Assembly (NCBI RefSeq): GCF_003439925.1
Contig: NZ_QQRR01000001.1
Location: 1,674,001 to 1,738,000 of the forward strand
Source of the DNA: Haloprofundus halophilus
GTDB taxonomy: Archaea > Halobacteriota > Halobacteria > Halobacteriales > Haloferacaceae
Direction: 5' to 3'
Length of the DNA stretch: 64,000 nt
Each line of letters opens with the position of its first letter. Positions within the stretch are counted from its first letter, which is position 1. The notes under the pieces are model-generated. The model did no database searches, was not told where the DNA came from, and worked only from the letters and a program-made list of their open reading frames with translations. This document shows positions 10,830 through 47,254 of this stretch, piece after piece. Made by a program: the position numbers and the translations under genes.

Positions 10830-11702
10830 CTAGCGTCGGAGCAGACGGTCCGGACACGCCTCGGCGGAGACGGTGACGCCGAACGACGCCGAATCCGACT
10901 GGACGACGTTGCCGACGGTGTCCGGGAGCGCCCACTCGACGCCGAGTCGGTGAGTACCGGGGCCGACGCAGCGGCCGCCCGCGAGCGCGACGTTCTCGAC
11001 GTTCGAGAACCCCGACAGGGGTCCTTCGTAGACAACCGGGTCCCGTGCGCTGCGCCCGCCTCGACCGGCGGTGTCGTGCCAGAGCGTGACGTGGAGATAC
11101 TCCTGTAACTCGCCCACGGAATCGGTGTCGTCGCCGTCAGCCCGCTCGGGTTCCGTCCGGTCGTTCTCGTCGGTTTCGTACAGTTCGCCGTCGACGGTGA
11201 GCGTCGCTTCGCTCCCACGCAGTTCGACGACGAAGGAGGCGGTGCCGCTGTCGCCGGGGAGGAGGTCGCCGACCCGGACCGGCTCCGAGGAGACGCGACG
11301 GAGCGAGAGGTGCGCTCTGTCGGTGGTCTCGTCGGTGCCGCCGTCGCCGGACGACTCCTCGGTTCGGCCGTCGCGGTCCCGGGAGGACCGGTCGGAGTCT
11401 CGACCGTCGGAGGAACGGTCGCCGTCGGACGGCTCGACGGTGTCGCTGCCCGCCTCGGCGTCGCCGTCTCCGGGGTCGTCCCCGTCGCTATCGGGTCCAT
11501 CAGCGCCGCTCGCTGTCGGTGTCGGCGTCCGACCGCCGTCTCGGGTCTCGACGTCCAAATCGAGTTCGGTCCCCGAGTCGTCGACGGGGTCGCCGAACAG
11601 CCGCTGTGCGCCGATACCGCCGCCGAGTCCGCCGAGGACGAGCGCGCCGACGCCCAGGAGCGTACGACGCCGCGACACCGACGACCCACTATTGTCCGTC
11701 AT
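10830..11702 (-). CDS. Secreted TasA/CalY-like protein, minor partner
   Basis: A 290-residue exported protein. The N-terminus has a Tat-like twin-arginine motif (SRRRTLLGVG, residues 10-19) and a Gly-rich hydrophobic stretch to about residue 32. Residues of roughly 40-115 are a very acidic Asp/Ser/Gly linker. The C-terminal domain has PGDSG, a GELQEYLHVTLW segment and VGNVVQSDS. These same landmarks occur in the larger neighbour just upstream (PGDSG and VGNEIQSDS), so the two proteins share a module. Such SipW-dependent-type or TasA-like proteins form surface fibres in other organisms; fibre formation here is inference. An open in-frame extension upstream to 11894 is Arg/Pro-rich and is rejected as coding. 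Confidence 0.7.
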   Translation of the reverse strand: MTDNSGSSVSRRRTLLGVGALVLGGLGGGIGAQRLFGDPVDDSGTELDLDVETRDGGRTPTPTASGADGPDSDGDDPGDGDAEAGSDTVEPSDGDRSSDGRDSDRSSRDRDGRTEESSGDGGTDETTDRAHLSLRRVSSEPVRVGDLLPGDSGTASFVVELRGSEATLTVDGELYETDENDRTEPERADGDDTDSVGELQEYLHVTLWHDTAGRGGRSARDPVVYEGPLSGFSNVENVALAGGRCVGPGTHRLGVEWALPDTVGNVVQSDSASFGVTVSAEACPDRLLRR

Positions 11703-11894
11703 AAACGGCTCTCGGCGGGGTCGAACCGCCGGTCGCGCCGTCGCAGCGGGGTACGCTGCGGTCGCAGAGAGCCGACGGGTGCGACCGCGTCGCACCCGAG
11801 GCAGCCGGTCGCGGTCGTAGCCGACCGCGACGGAAGGGAGCAGAACGGAAACCGCAGACGGAGGAGCCGTCTCCGTGTGCGGTCGCGGACCCAC

Positions 11895-13229
11895 TCAGTC
11901 GTCGTCCTCGTACTCGACGAACGCGTTGAGCCCGTAGTTGCCGTCCGCGGGCACCGAGCCGCTGCCGCCGAGGAACGTCATCGTCCCGCTGACGGCGAAC
12001 TCGTCGGCGGCGAGGTTTTCGAGCAGGAGGCCCGATTTCGCGCCGTCTTCGGCGAGCGCGCTGGTCGGCCCGTCGATGCTGCGGCCGGCGACTTCGACGT
12101 CGGAGAGTTCGACGTCGAAGCTCCCGTCGCTCGACTTGCCGAGCAGTCCCACCGTTCCGGTGTGGTCGGTCGAGTCGAAGTCGTCGAAGGAGAGCGTCTC
12201 TCCGGCGACCTCGAACGTCGCACCGTCGTCGTCGTCGAAGTTGAGCGTGAACTCGTACGGCGTATCGAACCGCCAGCCGGCGGTTCCGGTGTCGCCGTCG
12301 GCGGGTTCGTTGCCGAGGAACAGGTTCCAGGTGTCGCCGCTGTTGCCGACGACCGCCTGCGCGTTCCACTTGTTGCCGTCGTAGGCGAACTCGGGGAAGT
12401 CGGTGATGGCGGAGCTGTCGACGGGACACGGGTTGGTCGTGCCGTCGCTGTGGCGCGCCTGCAGCGCGTGGAACGCCACGTCGAACTCGATAGAGTCGCT
12501 CTGAATCTCGTTGCCGACCGCTTCGAAGTCGATGTGCCACTCGAGGCAGAGACACGGGCCGGTGACGTTGCCGGCTCTGTTCTCCATCGCGTACGGACGC
12601 TGCCGGCCGGCTTTCGCGTCGCCGTCCATCCCGGCGTCGAGCGGAACACCGGTGCTGAGCGTCCGGAGCACCTCGCCGAGCGTGCCGGTCACGATGACGT
12701 TCGAACCGTCGGTATCGTCGTCGTGGTCGTGCTCGCCACCCTGCGCCTCGACCTCGCCGGGAGCCTCGCAGTAGTACAGTTTCGCGTCGATAGCGTCGGC
12801 GAGTTCGCCGTTGCCCTTCTGTCCGCCGGTGTCGTCGACGAGCGCCTCGGGGTCGTTGCGGCCGTTCTCGTCGTTGGCGAGGAGGTCACCGCAGGCCCAC
12901 ATGTACGCGGGGTTGTCCTCGATCTCGAAGCAGAACTCCAGGCAGCCGGAGTCGCCGGGCTTCACGTCGCCGAGCGCGTACGTCCCGACCGCGGGTGCGC
13001 CGTCGACGTGACCGCGGACGTTACCCGAGTCGTCGTTCTCCGCGCCGTCGTACTTGGTCTTGTAGTCGACCGTGAGATCGAGTTTTCCGGCGGTGAACGT
13101 GTTTCCGGTGAGCGATTCTTCATCACTGAAGTACGCCGTCGTGCCGACACCGGCGCCCGCGGACGCGAGTCCGACGGTTCCGATTCCCAGCAGTACGTTG
13201 CGGCGCGAGAGTTCGAGTTTCTCTTTCAT
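11895..13229 (-). CDS. Secreted SipW-dependent-type (TasA/CalY-like) surface protein
   Basis: A 444-residue protein beginning with LSRRNVLLGIGTVGLA, then GVGTTAYFSDEE. The AYFSD box after the hydrophobic segment is the hallmark of the CalY/TasA-type signal region. The N-terminal domain (residues about 40-300) is Cys- and Asp-rich and contains PGDSG and VGNEIQSDS. The C-terminal part (about 300-440) looks like a separate beta-sandwich domain (YEFTLNFDDDDGATFEVAG), perhaps a choice-of-anchor type. It lies 192 bases upstream of its smaller partner on the same strand. No dedicated signal peptidase is present nearby, and export by Tat is possible because of the RR motif. Confidence 0.75.
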   Translation of the reverse strand: MKEKLELSRRNVLLGIGTVGLASAGAGVGTTAYFSDEESLTGNTFTAGKLDLTVDYKTKYDGAENDDSGNVRGHVDGAPAVGTYALGDVKPGDSGCLEFCFEIEDNPAYMWACGDLLANDENGRNDPEALVDDTGGQKGNGELADAIDAKLYYCEAPGEVEAQGGEHDHDDDTDGSNVIVTGTLGEVLRTLSTGVPLDAGMDGDAKAGRQRPYAMENRAGNVTGPCLCLEWHIDFEAVGNEIQSDSIEFDVAFHALQARHSDGTTNPCPVDSSAITDFPEFAYDGNKWNAQAVVGNSGDTWNLFLGNEPADGDTGTAGWRFDTPYEFTLNFDDDDGATFEVAGETLSFDDFDSTDHTGTVGLLGKSSDGSFDVELSDVEVAGRSIDGPTSALAEDGAKSGLLLENLAADEFAVSGTMTFLGGSGSVPADGNYGLNAFVEYEDDD

Positions 13230-13612
13230 TGGTTTCCACGTCGTCCGGCGGAGCCCGACGACCTACCGCCGCCCACGAACTGTCGGGTGATAGGTACGAG
13301 CCGCGTGCCGGTTCGCTAATCGGTGGTGAGGCCCGTCTAAGGTCACCTGAGACGAGTGTAACGACGACATCGACGCGCCTAACCGACGGTTAGCTCCGTC
13401 CGTCAGAAAGATACGGAGCTCGTACTCGGTCTGAAGGGTTCGCTGCTCGTGCTCGGTCGGAAAGGTGCGGTGCTCGTACTCGGTCGGAAAGGTGCGGTGC
13501 TCGTACTCGGTCGGGAGAGTACGGTGTCCGTACCCGGGCGGGAGGGCGACGCTCGGGACGACATCTCTGCAGCACACGACAGTTTATGCGCCGTCGAACC
13601 GACCGACGATAT
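13230..13612. other. Gene-free divergent gap (383 bp)
   Basis: This gap separates the divergent surface-protein gene and the YkgJ-type gene. It must hold both promoters, but no clean TATA box stands out for either. Its most obvious content is the 27-bp tandem repeat at 13418-13552. Apparent reading frames across it are products of the repeat, because 27 is a multiple of three. Confidence 0.6.
13418..13552. repeat. 27-bp tandem repeat, five degenerate copies
   Basis: Copies begin at 13418, 13445, 13472, 13499 and 13526. The best conserved pair starts GCTCGTACTCGGTCGGAAAG. The outer copies have diverged more than the central ones. The array is upstream of the YkgJ-type gene at 13613 and of the divergent surface-protein gene, so it could affect either promoter. 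Confidence 0.9.
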
Positions 13613-42169: not shown

Positions 42170-45100
42170 TTACATGAAGTCCGCGATACCGCTCTGCTTG
42201 TTCTTGTCGTTCTCGAAGACGCTCTCCAGACTCTTCTTGAGCACTTCGAGGCGCTGTTTCGTGTAGTCGCGGCAGCCGAACTCCTCGGCCACCTCGATGG
42301 CGGTGTCCATGTACTTGTTCACCGAACCCTGGTGGACCGTGAGGTTGACGCGCCCGCCGCACTCGCGGCAGTCGCCGGTGAGGGGCATCCGCCGATACTT
42401 CTCGCCGCAGTCGAGACAGCGCGTCTTCTGTCGGGAGAAGGCGCGGAGGTTGCCGATGAGGTCCGGCAGGAAGTGGTACTCGATGACCCGCTCGGCGACG
42501 TCCGTCTCGTCGACCGCCCGGAGTTTCCGCGCGAGATGCAGCTGCGCGTCCATCTTCTCGGTCATCGAGCCGAGCGTTTTGTACGCCGACAGCGCCGGAC
42601 CGAGGTGGATGTTCGACGTGTCGTGGGTGTGATAGAACTCGGAGTATTCGAGGTCGGTGCCCAGGTTGTCCTCGGCGATGGTGATGAGCTCCTCCACCTC
42701 GCCGGGGTCAGCCATCTCGCGGGTCGCCTCGTAGAACTCCCTGGGGTACTGCCGGACGATGTCCATGTTGTGCGCCTCGTCGTCGATCTCGGAGGGGTCG
42801 ATGCGCGAGGACATGACCAACGGTGCGTCCATCTGCCCGCCGCGCTTGTCGGGGAGGAACTCCTTCGAGAAGTTCAGCAGGCCGTCCATGAGGAGCATGA
42901 CGCAGTCCTCGTCTCCGTCGCATTGCTTCACACCGATATCGTTCGCAACGAGTGAGTGAGTATCTTCAACCGTGAGACAGTAGGTGTAATTGACGTCTGA
43001 TGCTACAACCTCTACGTCGCCCACCTCTTCGACGAGCATATCGGTACCACCGTCCGAAAACACTCTCCGTGAACGTGCAGCGGTCTCTTGGATATTCGAT
43101 AAGAGCGTCGCTTGCTTACGTTCTAGATGGAAGCCGACAACCTCAGCGAAGCGTCGTGCATCCTCTGACGAGAGAGTAAAGACGAAACTGGGCCGCGACA
43201 TTGACGGGTCGTCGATTTCGTAGTAGTCCGGGAACTTCGCGGCGAGCGGTTCTGGTCCTTTTCGCTCTACGCGGCCTTTGATTCCGAGTCGCGTAAGAAG
43301 CGCGAGGACATCCTCGGCCAACTCCGGACTCACTGTGGTGGCATGTACGGTAAGCGAGTTCGAGGATGCGTGTCCATCACCGCTGAAGTAACCACGAAGG
43401 AACCCCGAAACGATCGCATCGGGTGCATCGAAGATACATTGTGGAACACGTTTCCGATGAGCGTGTGTCCCTGCGTCGAGAACGGATTCGAAGAAGGTCC
43501 GAAGCAAACGTCCTGAAACGGTTACCTTCGCGTGGTTTTCGCGATACGGTTCGACACCGAAGGAATCTCTGAGCGTCGAGACGAAGAACTCCCGCGCGCT
43601 CGCTTCGACTCCACAGAGCGTCGTCTGGTGAATCGTCCCTTTTGGGGTCTCTTGCTCACGGGCAAACCCTTCAGCGGCGTAGTAACCGAGAAGAGTCGAC
43701 ACACGCTCGTCCAAAGTTACGTGTCGGTTGATTTCGGTCGAATCGCGCTTCATCCCGAGCGAAGCGGTTTCTGGCACAAATTCGAGAACGGACGAGACGG
43801 AACCCAACACTTCCACAAGAAGGGCGGCTGGGATACTTTCTCGGTACAGATAGTTGCTTAGTGCTTTTTTCGAGAGACCGAGATGCTCTGCAGTACTCTT
43901 CAGAGGGTAGAACCGACCGTCACAATTGGGAGCAAGCGTACGCTTGAACATACTGTACAGCGTCTCTTTCTCTATGCCTTTTACCATGAGACGCTCGTTT
44001 TCGAGAGCCTCGCTGCGGAGGAACAGTTCGAGAAGATCAAACTGGGGGAACTGTTCCGAGACGTCGAGAGAGTCTAAATGACTTGGAGTGACGAGGAGAT
44101 CCGAACTTGAGATCTCGGAGGCACGTTTGCCCTCGATGCATGCGTTCTCTGGGTCGTAAACTTGTAACTCGTGGTCCGGCGTGACGGTTATTTCGCGTCC
44201 GCTCCGCGTCTCAACGCGCACGAGGTGTCTCGGTGCTGGATGTTTAGAGACCGCATCTACAGATTTCAGCACTTCCACCCCATCGCTGTCGAGAGAGGGA
44301 ACCAGTACATCTTTGTCCAACTCCTGCACTAGCGTCCCGAAATCGTCCGTCTCGGGGTCGTCGAGTCGCGCTTCGACAAGCGATTCGATATCGTCGTAGT
44401 GCCATTCACCCGCTTCGTCCTCGAACCAAACCTTCGTCTCCGGGTGGAAGCAGTTCCGCCGCTTCGCCGCGTGGAAGTAGGGATGTGCGTACCCCACCGC
44501 CGCCGACGTGAATCCGACGACCCGTCCGACGACCGCCGCCGACGTGTGCGGTGCCATCCCGAACACGAGTTCGCCGATGAGGTCGTCGCGCTCGTTCACC
44601 TCGTAGAACGCCGGAAGCCCGTAGTAGCTCTCCAGGAGGTCGTCGACGAAGTTCGCCGTCTTCAGCATGTGCTCGGCCGCGCCGTCCGAGAGGACGATGT
44701 CCTGCACTCTGAGTTCGAGCAGTTGGTCGTCGTGGCGCAGCGGTTCGCCGTCGATGTCGCGCTCGTAGCCGAGTTCGCGGAAGTGCTCGGCCGTCACGTC
44801 CAGTTCTTCGGGCCTGACCGCGGTGACCGGCAAGTCGGTCATGTCGTAGCGGACCGTGCCGTCCTTGAACGCGGTGACGCCGTGTTTCGCGCGGAGAACT
44901 CCCTTCTCCATCGCCTCCGGCGTCTTGTGCGCCGAGGTGAGCCCCTTCACGCCTTTCAGAATCTTGTACGAGGCTTTGCGTTCCCCGACGGCGTCCAAGG
45001 CCTCGGTGAGTTCGCGACCGATATCGACGTCGTGCCAGTCGGGGCTCTCGACCTCGCGCTCGCAGCGCGGGCACTCGACGCGGCCCGCCTCGTCGGGTTC

Positions 45101-47254
45101 GACCTCGATCTCGCAGTCGGTACACTCGTAGTACGGTTCGGTGTGGCCGCCGCACGCGGGGCAGTTCGGCTTGTAGGTGTGTTCGCCGCAGGCGGCGCAC
45201 TCGCGGCGGCCGACGCGCACGCCGACGACACCGCGGCGACCCCGGTCGTCCATCTTCCGGGCCGCCTCGCCGACGTCGCGCTGGCTCCCGCCGGCCTCAC
45301 CGATGGGGAACAAGGTGTGGACTGCGGGAGAGAGGTCGCGGCTCATGGACTTCTCGGGGCGACCCATTCGGTTGCCGATTCGGGTCGGTGCGCGCTCCTG
45401 GACGGTGAACGGCGCGACCTCGTTCGCGGCTTTCACCGCGTTGTCGCCGCCGTCCCAGTTCCGGGCTTCGGCCGAGAGCTCCTCGGCGTCCCACGTCTTT
45501 CGGAGCCCGTCGTCGACGCCGAGCGTCCGCGCGAGCAGCCGCCACTCCGGAATCCGGAGGGCGTCCTCGGTCTGGGAGTGTTCGACGAGCAGGTGTTCGA
45601 GCGTTCTCCTCGTGGTCTCGGTGCGCTCGATAACGAGCAGACCGTCGACGAGTTCACCGTCGGAGACGGCGTCGGCGAGCGTCTCGAACGCCGAGACGGA
45701 GATGTCGTGCCAGAGGTAGGTGAACTTCGGATGGAGCGGGGCGTCGTACTCGGTCGCCCACTCCAGCGCCTGTTCGGCCGTCGGCGATTCGAGGTCGACG
45801 CGCGGCGAGTCGCGCAGCGCCTGTACGTCCGCACCGGCGTGGTCGAGGTCCTGTATCCACCACTCGGGCGTGTAGGAGGCGGGCGCGAGCGGGTGGTTGT
45901 TCTCGACGAACTCGCCGTAGTTGACGAGATACTCGCCGAGGTCGAGAATCTTCTCGACGCCGTTTCTGAGTTCGAGCGCCTCCTCGGGGTCGTCGATGCG
46001 CCGGACGTCGCCGTTGGCGAGGCGCACCGTCGGCCCCTCGATGGAGTCGACGGGGACGACGCCGCCCGCTTTCCCGGGTCGTTCGGTCTTTATCTGGGTT
46101 CCCGTGGCGACGAAGTCGTCGACGACGTGCATCGTCGCCGGGTGGACGCCGGCCGTGGCGAACCCGTGGTTTCGCGCGCGGCCGTATCGGAGTCTGAACC
46201 CCCCTTCTTCGGACGGGTGACCGAACACGGGGCGGCCCGCGATGAGGTCGCGCAGGAACTTGGTCGCCGGTTCGACGCGCGGCGGGCCGTCGGGGTCGGG
46301 CGAGTCGGCTTCGGAGTCGTCGTCTCCGTCTTCGGCGGCTTCGTCCTCGGTGTCCGCCGCGTCGTCGCCGTCGGCGGCCTCCTCGTCTTTCGTCTCCGCC
46401 TCCCCGTCGTCTTTGCCGATGGTACCGTCGATGAGGTCCTGGAGCCACGGCCAGTCGACTTCGTCGAGTTGGCGGGTGTAGCGCTGAATCTTCGGCGCTT
46501 TCAGCGCGATGCCCTCGGCCATGACGAGACACATCCCGCCGCGGGCGGAGTTGGTGTCGACGCGGTCGAGGTCCCGGTAGCCGGAGACCTCCTCGTCGCC
46601 GGTCGCCTCGCCGTCGAGCATGATGGGCATGTTCCGCGAGATGAAGCGCGTCTCCTTGTCCTTCGGCGAGTACTGCAGGCCGGTCTCCTTGTCGTAGAGG
46701 TCGACCTCCTCGACGTAGCGTTCGACCTCGTCGTCGCGGGCCTTGTACTCGTCGAGGCCGATGAGCGTCCGCGTGTAGTCGGCGACGAGCACCGAGAGCG
46801 CCTGCGCCGTGCCGCCCGCGGAGCGAATCGGCCCGGCGTAGTAGACGTTGACGAACTCGGTTCCGTCGTCGTTCGAGAGGATCTCGACGCGGTCGATACC
46901 CTCGATGGGCGCGGCGACGACGCCCTCGGTGAGGAGGGCGACGGCCGTCCGAACCGCGCCTTCGACCTTCCCGGCCCGGGTGTCGTAGTCGCCGACGCGG
47001 CCCTCCGCGAAGTCCTCCGCGAGGGCGAGCGCCGCCTCCTCGCGGGACATCTGTTCTTCGAGTTCGCGGACGCGTTCGGCGACGCCCTCGATTCCGAGGA
47101 TGTTCTCGACGCGGTCGGCCATGTCCTTGGCGACCGGAATCTCGACCTCGGTGCCGGGGTCCATGCCTTGCTCGCGGGCGGCGTCGGCGAGCTCGAAGGC
47201 CTCGTCGAGTCGGTTCTCGATGCGCGCGAAGTAGCGCTCGTCGTCCGGTCTCAC
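42170..47254 (-). CDS. polC: DNA polymerase D large subunit (DP2) with intein
   Basis: A 1694-codon gene for the catalytic subunit of archaeal family-D polymerase. After removal of a 510-residue intein the mature protein is 1184 residues (N-extein 934, C-extein 250). Cys-rich zinc modules occur at CAACGEHTYKPNCPACGG and CLDCGEKYRRMPLTGDCREC. A long acidic linker of Asp/Glu lies about residues 275-320. The catalytic NCDGD motif of the double-psi barrel is split by the intein. The start is GTG, one base after the stop of the upstream PPC gene, so the two form an operon. The small subunit DP1 is not in the window. Confidence 0.96.
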   Translation of the reverse strand: MRPDDERYFARIENRLDEAFELADAAREQGMDPGTEVEIPVAKDMADRVENILGIEGVAERVRELEEQMSREEAALALAEDFAEGRVGDYDTRAGKVEGAVRTAVALLTEGVVAAPIEGIDRVEILSNDDGTEFVNVYYAGPIRSAGGTAQALSVLVADYTRTLIGLDEYKARDDEVERYVEEVDLYDKETGLQYSPKDKETRFISRNMPIMLDGEATGDEEVSGYRDLDRVDTNSARGGMCLVMAEGIALKAPKIQRYTRQLDEVDWPWLQDLIDGTIGKDDGEAETKDEEAADGDDAADTEDEAAEDGDDDSEADSPDPDGPPRVEPATKFLRDLIAGRPVFGHPSEEGGFRLRYGRARNHGFATAGVHPATMHVVDDFVATGTQIKTERPGKAGGVVPVDSIEGPTVRLANGDVRRIDDPEEALELRNGVEKILDLGEYLVNYGEFVENNHPLAPASYTPEWWIQDLDHAGADVQALRDSPRVDLESPTAEQALEWATEYDAPLHPKFTYLWHDISVSAFETLADAVSDGELVDGLLVIERTETTRRTLEHLLVEHSQTEDALRIPEWRLLARTLGVDDGLRKTWDAEELSAEARNWDGGDNAVKAANEVAPFTVQERAPTRIGNRMGRPEKSMSRDLSPAVHTLFPIGEAGGSQRDVGEAARKMDDRGRRGVVGVRVGRRECAACGEHTYKPNCPACGGHTEPYYECTDCEIEVEPDEAGRVECPRCEREVESPDWHDVDIGRELTEALDAVGERKASYKILKGVKGLTSAHKTPEAMEKGVLRAKHGVTAFKDGTVRYDMTDLPVTAVRPEELDVTAEHFRELGYERDIDGEPLRHDDQLLELRVQDIVLSDGAAEHMLKTANFVDDLLESYYGLPAFYEVNERDDLIGELVFGMAPHTSAAVVGRVVGFTSAAVGYAHPYFHAAKRRNCFHPETKVWFEDEAGEWHYDDIESLVEARLDDPETDDFGTLVQELDKDVLVPSLDSDGVEVLKSVDAVSKHPAPRHLVRVETRSGREITVTPDHELQVYDPENACIEGKRASEISSSDLLVTPSHLDSLDVSEQFPQFDLLELFLRSEALENERLMVKGIEKETLYSMFKRTLAPNCDGRFYPLKSTAEHLGLSKKALSNYLYRESIPAALLVEVLGSVSSVLEFVPETASLGMKRDSTEINRHVTLDERVSTLLGYYAAEGFAREQETPKGTIHQTTLCGVEASAREFFVSTLRDSFGVEPYRENHAKVTVSGRLLRTFFESVLDAGTHAHRKRVPQCIFDAPDAIVSGFLRGYFSGDGHASSNSLTVHATTVSPELAEDVLALLTRLGIKGRVERKGPEPLAAKFPDYYEIDDPSMSRPSFVFTLSSEDARRFAEVVGFHLERKQATLLSNIQETAARSRRVFSDGGTDMLVEEVGDVEVVASDVNYTYCLTVEDTHSLVANDIGVKQCDGDEDCVMLLMDGLLNFSKEFLPDKRGGQMDAPLVMSSRIDPSEIDDEAHNMDIVRQYPREFYEATREMADPGEVEELITIAEDNLGTDLEYSEFYHTHDTSNIHLGPALSAYKTLGSMTEKMDAQLHLARKLRAVDETDVAERVIEYHFLPDLIGNLRAFSRQKTRCLDCGEKYRRMPLTGDCRECGGRVNLTVHQGSVNKYMDTAIEVAEEFGCRDYTKQRLEVLKKSLESVFENDKNKQSGIADFM
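42923..44452 (-). other. Intein with LAGLIDADG homing endonuclease
   Basis: A 510-residue in-frame insert. It begins with Cys (CFHPETKVWFEDE) and keeps the block-B TPDH motif (TVTPDHELQVYD). It carries two LAGLIDADG motifs (LLGYYAAEGFA and FLRGYFSGDGHA) and ends TVEDTHSLVANDIGVKQ, followed by the extein Cys. The C-terminal residue is Gln rather than Asn and the penultimate is Lys rather than His. GC content is visibly lower than in the flanking exteins. It sits between N and C of the catalytic motif, a known intein site in PolC (Pol-II) genes of Pyrococcus and Halobacterium. Confidence 0.95.

Follow-up and report, generated by a model that had tools for sequence, protein, structure and literature searches.

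A TasA/camelysin-type gene pair of Haloprofundus and a SipW-type peptidase encoded in trans: putative parts of a two-locus surface fibre system

Introduction

TasA-type fibres hold Bacillus biofilms together, and to our knowledge little is known about a haloarchaeal counterpart. Two neighbouring genes of Haloprofundus halophilus (genome G000; 3.47 Mb on 6 contigs) were described in a preliminary reading of the DNA as a pair of secreted TasA/CalY-like proteins that share a module and come without a signal peptidase. We wondered how such proteins might be exported and matured and whether they might belong to a fibre. The genes lie in a stretch of 64,000 nucleotides (C1:1674001-1738000) that was analyzed as a whole and is called the window here.

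Results

Two neighbouring genes encode proteins with one homologous module

The genes for P0002 and P0001 are separated by 192 bp. Their site is flanked by a gene for a 67-aa DUF7561 protein, which adjoins a helicase gene, and by a DUF7531 gene. The following features were assigned (positions are those of the window):

11895-13229, minus strand: P0002, 444 aa, TasA/camelysin-type secreted protein with a SipW-dependent signal
13134-13229, minus strand: P0002 residues 1-32, signal region with SRR, a hydrophobic stretch and GVGTTA; putative cleavage after A32
13083-13133, minus strand: P0002 residues 33-49 (YFSDEESLTGNTFTAGK), predicted start of the mature protein and candidate donor strand
12414-13082, minus strand: P0002 residues ~50-272, TasA-like beta module with PGDSG, GEL and VGNEIQSDS
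11907-12380, minus strand: P0002 residues 284-441, C-terminal concanavalin-A-like (lectin-fold) domain, kin to choice-of-anchor W
10830-11702, minus strand: P0001, 290 aa, ATG at 11702, TasA-fold protein without a SipW box
11595-11702, minus strand: P0001 residues 1-36, RR signal and hydrophobic segment, assigned from the sequence and the orthologues
11541-11564, minus strand: P0001 residues 47-54, first strand LDLDVETR, of low pLDDT; (F)DLSVDY in most orthologues
11310-11540, minus strand: P0001 residues 55-131, acidic Ser/Asp/Gly-rich linker, predicted to be disordered
10854-11309, minus strand: P0001 residues ~132-283, TasA-like module with PGDSG, GEL and VGNVVQSDS

What the preliminary description had read from the letters was borne out. 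Both proteins carry an RR-type signal (SRR) and share landmarks in the same order, namely PGDSG (149-153 in P0001, 91-95 in P0002), GEL (197-199 and 141-143) and VGN-x-[IV]-QSDS, which is VGNVVQSDS at 264-272 of P0001 and VGNEIQSDS at 238-246 of P0002. The AYFSDEE box is found on P0002 only, the extra C-terminal beta domain is present in the predicted model of P0002, and the acidic disordered linker is present in P0001 (~55-131, mostly at pLDDT <50), where its length and letters differ among orthologues. The module itself is homologous in the two proteins. BLASTP aligned them with E=4e-9 (30% over 174 aa), and a profile-profile comparison of 11 P0001 orthologues with 40 P0002 relatives gave a probability of 99.7% and E=1.4e-26, a likeness beyond chance. 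Module folds that differ had been named beforehand as refuting evidence; the predicted folds of the two modules do not differ.

The proposed kinship with TasA and CalY was upheld by profiles for P0002 and by predicted folds for both proteins. P0002 scores 32.7 bits with TIGR04088, the SipW-dependent signal peptide (cut-off 19), a signal found in 39 of the 40 relatives, and 27.5 bits with camelysin PF12389 (cut-off 22.5), here over residues 10-57 only. By its predicted model, P0001 has the TasA jelly-roll fold: Foldseek matched it to TasA (8aur_A) with E 1.5e-5 and probability 1.00, and its VIA-align list is headed by three TasA chains (Z 8.3, 8.0 and 7.8; next row 7.2), the best at rmsd 3.9 over 153 residues. 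Confidence in this model is modest (low mean pLDDT of 63.7). For P0002 (mean pLDDT 77.5), 8aur_A was third by E-value (probability 0.99, E 6.8e-3), outranked by two unlike chains at lower probability. A TasA jelly-roll fold of P0002 thus has a modest match of its own behind it, together with homology to P0001, whose fold list TasA heads. Searching PDB sequences with P0002 alone gave no match; with the A2 profile the matches were weak (sialoadhesin at E 0.0035, TasA chains at E 0.064), and the A3 profile found TasA at E 0.31-0.34.

The C-terminal domain of P0002 matched 1dq2_B with Z 13.0 (rmsd 2.8, 152 residues), a likeness of fold only. Matches to this domain fill the VIA-align list of P0002, which therefore says little about the TasA-like module. 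The choice-of-anchor W model NF041928 gave 37.1 bits on the C terminus, below its cut-off of 45, and matched 24 of the 40 relatives at E <=0.01. Using a profile built here, the lectin-fold domain was found in 35 of 322 TasA-like proteins, spread over 35 of 73 loci.

Two closer assignments of P0002 were rejected. The Bacillus TasA equivalog model NF046066 gave 12.2 bits where 450 are required. NF052520, the NCBIfam model of TafA, the Tat-dependent fimbriae ("tafi") of haloarchaea, gave 10.9 bits (cut-off 190; E 0.34, residues 9-35). It matched weakly in 2 of the 40 relatives, and a PDB chain named 'Pilin' (9p0a_C) was found with the A2 profile at E 0.039 (first 60 residues). Searching this genome with NF052520 gave no match, and the same search gave none in any control. 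By NF052520, P0002 is no member of TafA; it may be a cousin.

P0002 carries a twin-arginine signal followed by a SipW-type box

To characterize the signal we compared TasA-like relatives. Among 258 with a recognisable SipW box (64 of the 322 TasA-like proteins, which had none, were dropped beforehand), 255 have RR, preceded by S or T in 249 of the 255; in other proteins, taken for comparison, RR makes up 986 of 1634 basic pairs. Such a signal makes Tat export of P0002 likely. Two positions behind the predicted cut, 253 of the 258 have F or L. TasA carries phenylalanine at this place; SipW cleaves it, while E. coli LepB does so poorly, and other residues around the site matter too (PMC10269814). 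The argument from an aromatic P2' rests on E. coli LepB and does not separate one archaeal peptidase from another.

The twin arginines had been taken to suggest Tat export instead of SipW. The signal is indeed of the twin-arginine type; 'instead' was misleading, as the genome does encode a SipW-type peptidase (see below) and translocation and cleavage are successive steps. Tat for translocation followed by SipW for cleavage would be a consistent reading.

The segment behind the putative cut is strongly conserved. F34, D36, E38, N43, A47 and G48 are invariant in the 40 P0002 relatives, and exactly 22 residues lie between glycine G29, which closes the hydrophobic stretch of the signal, and leucine L52 in the first strand in 40/40. 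P0001 differs here. NCBIfam profiles, including the one for the SipW-dependent signal, found no match in P0001 or eight orthologues, and the SipW box pattern, present in 253 of 322 TasA-like proteins, occurs in none of 11 P0001 orthologues. From the glycine of the hydrophobic stretch to the leucine of the first strand, these orthologues have 13-19 residues, variable and mostly acidic. With a shorter, variable and acidic N terminus of the mature protein and no SipW box, P0001 probably lends no strand in the way envisaged for P0002. Related small genes of SipW clusters also lack the box (0/16), so its absence is a trait of the class to which P0001 belongs; of the accessory genes, 9 of 15 carry the box.

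A SipW-type peptidase is encoded on another contig

A TIGR02228 profile search of the genome found three matching places, none of them in the window. By far the strongest match, at 107 bits, is P0003 on contig C2. It is also the match that comes near Bacillus SipW, scoring 96 bits with the model NF046067, below its cut-off of 190. P0003 contains SASMSP and VTHRV, the places at which ER-type enzymes have their Ser and His. Its gene overlaps, by four bases, those of P0004, a TasA-like accessory protein, and of P0005, a small secreted protein. Beyond these genes lie a DUF7344 gene (regulator) and then P0006. The 14 kb around P0003 hold a four-gene operon (regulator, accessory gene, peptidase and small gene) and neither gene kind of the window pair. 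The phrase 'without a signal peptidase' thus stands for the surroundings of the pair and for the window; for the genome it fails, as a SipW-type enzyme is encoded in trans and its presence tracks that of P0002-type genes. That the genome has no suitable peptidase is ruled out by the TIGR02228 matches and by P0003.

A PDB sequence search with P0004 returned Gly-rich linkers. The DUF7344 gene (L067 8962-9486, plus strand) and P0006 (9714-10571, minus strand; no Pfam match) are found repeatedly next to the SipW clusters of many haloarchaea, and P0006 is retained in all five genomes of the genus.

P0002-type genes and SipW-type peptidases occur together

P0002-type matches were found in 85 of 148 genomes of the family. 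Both the P0002-type gene and the SipW-type peptidase are present in 84 genomes and neither in 61; one has only the P0002-type gene (G031, 70% complete) and two have only the peptidase (G070, broken, and G139, partial). These counts take genomes singly, ignoring relatedness, and rest in many genomes on part of the candidates. Five peptidase matches of <=52 bits were dropped before counting; keeping them gives 84 with both, 7 with the peptidase only and 1 with the P0002-type gene only. Genomes of both states occur within at least 8 genera among the genomes listed.

The two genes are usually close together. In 61 of 64 genomes (of the 85 positive ones, those that the count covers) they lie no more than 11,050 bases apart, with a median of 5,359. 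The exceptions are G000 and its genus-mate Haloprofundus marisrubri SB9 (G055), in both of which they are on different contigs, and G062, where matches to the P0001 query lie <5 kb from a peptidase. As the genes are neighbours elsewhere, the layout split over two loci looks peculiar to Haloprofundus. Where the locus comes from a named organism, it usually starts with a regulator, followed by several TasA-type genes, in many cases a small P0001-like gene, then an accessory gene and finally the peptidase, which is present in 59 of 71 such loci.

P0002 and P0001 group with different genes of these clusters. In a tree, P0002 fell among cluster subunits (9 rows, support 96), eight of which have the lectin-fold domain. 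The P0001 rows joined the small genes of the clusters in a group of 24 rows (support 99). Most of the 131 rows in the tree come from 26 of the 73 loci; it was built by a quick method with a midpoint root, and one G055 protein was entered twice.

The best 11 matches to P0001 share one location, next to the DUF7561 and helicase genes (11/11 loci examined), and all 11 genomes carry a SipW-type peptidase. A P0002-type gene adjoins P0001 at only three of these loci, in the window, in G055 and in G020; in G020 the gene order is reversed and the neighbour of P0001 does not fall near P0002 in the tree. The two genes had been described as a pair. Orthologues are indeed found together, at 3/11 loci, though not regularly, and a fixed two-gene unit was rejected on this count. 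Since 8 of the 11 P0001 loci have no P0002-type neighbour, gene order argues weakly for a direct partnership of P0001 and P0002.

Joint loss of both loci in three genus-mates

Three genus-mates (G010, G036 and G070) have an empty site where the pair would be, with the DUF7561 and DUF7531 genes 82-177 bp apart. At the site of the C2 operon, the regulator, the accessory gene, the peptidase and the small gene are all gone in G010 and G036 between the genes that flank them in G000. When every candidate was scored with TIGR02228, a strong full-length match was found only in G000 (110 bits) and G055 (116 bits); G070 has a fragment, and G010 and G036 have only weak general matches, none exceeding 31 bits by itself. 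At the emptied peptidase site G010 retains a 21-residue remnant of the DUF7344 regulator (L184 7994-8056). G070 has an 80-aa remnant of the SipW-type peptidase (L180 9141-9383, minus strand); the accessory, small and regulator genes are not among the genes called there. As judged from these remnants and from P0001 standing at its site in other genera, the absence in the three genus-mates speaks for loss. The same three species lost two unlinked sites, which is the best evidence that the two loci work together. A further observation concerns G010, where an epimerase-like gene two genes away from the empty site has shrunk to 41 aa with both ends kept (L177 9309-9434).

Discussion

A putative fibre system divided within one genome

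We consider it fairly probable that the pair encodes secreted parts of a surface fibre of the TasA/camelysin type, divided here between two loci, with P0002 as a Tat-exported, SipW-cleaved, lectin-headed subunit and P0001 as an accessory protein. The direct evidence consists of homology, fold, signal type, the peptidase in trans, co-occurrence and joint loss, from which we infer export, cleavage and polymerisation. As the signal suggests, P0002 would cross the membrane by Tat and would then be cut by P0003 of C2 after TTA|YF. By analogy with TasA, whose donor strand is given as residues 28-38 (PMC9674648), the new N-terminal strand of P0002 would complete the sandwich of the next subunit and thereby form a polymer. 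Each subunit would present its lectin-fold domain outward. The C2 operon would provide the peptidase, P0004 and P0005, with P0004 starting fibres in the role proposed for TapA. As an accessory TasA-fold subunit, P0001 would end, cap or anchor the fibre. The preliminary description's suggestion of a major and a minor fibre subunit may hold. A more specific version is possible but tentative: in a system whose subunit genes lie apart from the SipW operon, the donor-poor P0001 would accept a strand, pass none on and so end or anchor the fibre. Its family, which keeps one chromosomal site over several genera, would form a novel class of fibre terminators with an inheritance of its own.

P0002 might instead be a lectin-like adhesin, processed by SipW and either secreted or attached to the cell, that employs the TasA module again but does not polymerise; P0001 would be an envelope protein in its own right with the same fold. 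The lectin-fold domain is the best-defined domain of P0002, and most P0001 loci (8/11) have no P0002-type neighbour. We nevertheless regard it as unlikely, given that the candidate donor segment has constant length and many invariant residues in 40/40 relatives and that the clusters often contain an accessory gene and a peptidase besides several TasA-type genes, which is expected of a fibre with multiple subunits. Doubt may also be cast on the role of P0003. Tat could export both proteins and the general signal peptidases of archaea could mature them, while the SipW-type enzyme of C2 would serve its neighbours only. G000 and every genus-mate have two further, general TIGR02228 matches, the SipW box is missing from all 11 P0001 orthologues, and the LepB-based P2' argument cannot tell archaeal peptidases apart. 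Against this stands the finding that P0002-type genes track the SipW-type peptidase over 148 genomes and that both were lost in three genus-mates which retain general peptidases; we hold this explanation to be quite improbable.

If P0002 and P0001 are parts of a fibre split over two loci, the proposal makes a testable prediction, namely that a peptidase gene and a subunit gene located on separate contigs are both necessary for the same fibre. The genus-mates that lost both loci represent natural controls. The two-locus layout points to a surface fibre system divided within one genome.

Relation to known systems

TasA homologues in archaea have already been published, as PMC10151520 states. The system resembles TasA/TapA/SipW of Bacillus subtilis in its SipW-dependent signal, TasA module and dedicated peptidase. 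The accessory gene and the peptidase gene overlap (P0004 and P0003, 4 bases), and an overlap is likewise reported for tapA and sipW in B. subtilis (PMC10151520). In contrast to B. subtilis, the signals are of the twin-arginine type, a lectin-fold domain is fused to the subunit, the subunit genes and the peptidase are on separate contigs, and a second TasA-fold protein has no SipW box. Bacillus cereus has two TasA-type proteins, CalY1 and CalY2, with one SipW (PMC10151520). The likeness to these camelysins lies in this combination and in the match of P0002 to PF12389; they are encoded in one operon, whereas P0001 is distant from P0002 and has no SipW signal. AbpA, which forms the archaeal bundling pili of Pyrobaculum calidifontis, is described as an archaeal TasA-like filament in PMC9674648 and PMC10151520. 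Its chain 7ueg_A, compared by fold only, appears in the VIA-align list of P0001 at Z 6.3, not above unrelated rows. In the limited collection of literature searched, we found no description of this haloarchaeal cluster, the lectin-fused subunit or the split layout.

Further observations in the window

An alignment of the intergenic sequences of the pair's region with those of G055 gave no firm promoter. A 27-bp tandem repeat of 4 to 5 copies lies between P0002 and the DUF7531 gene (13402-13546) and was not found there in G055. Elsewhere in the window, the gene for the DNA polymerase II large subunit DP2 (42170-47254, minus strand; 1694 aa) contains an intein with a splicing domain at 975-1440 and a LAGLIDADG domain at 1282-1374.
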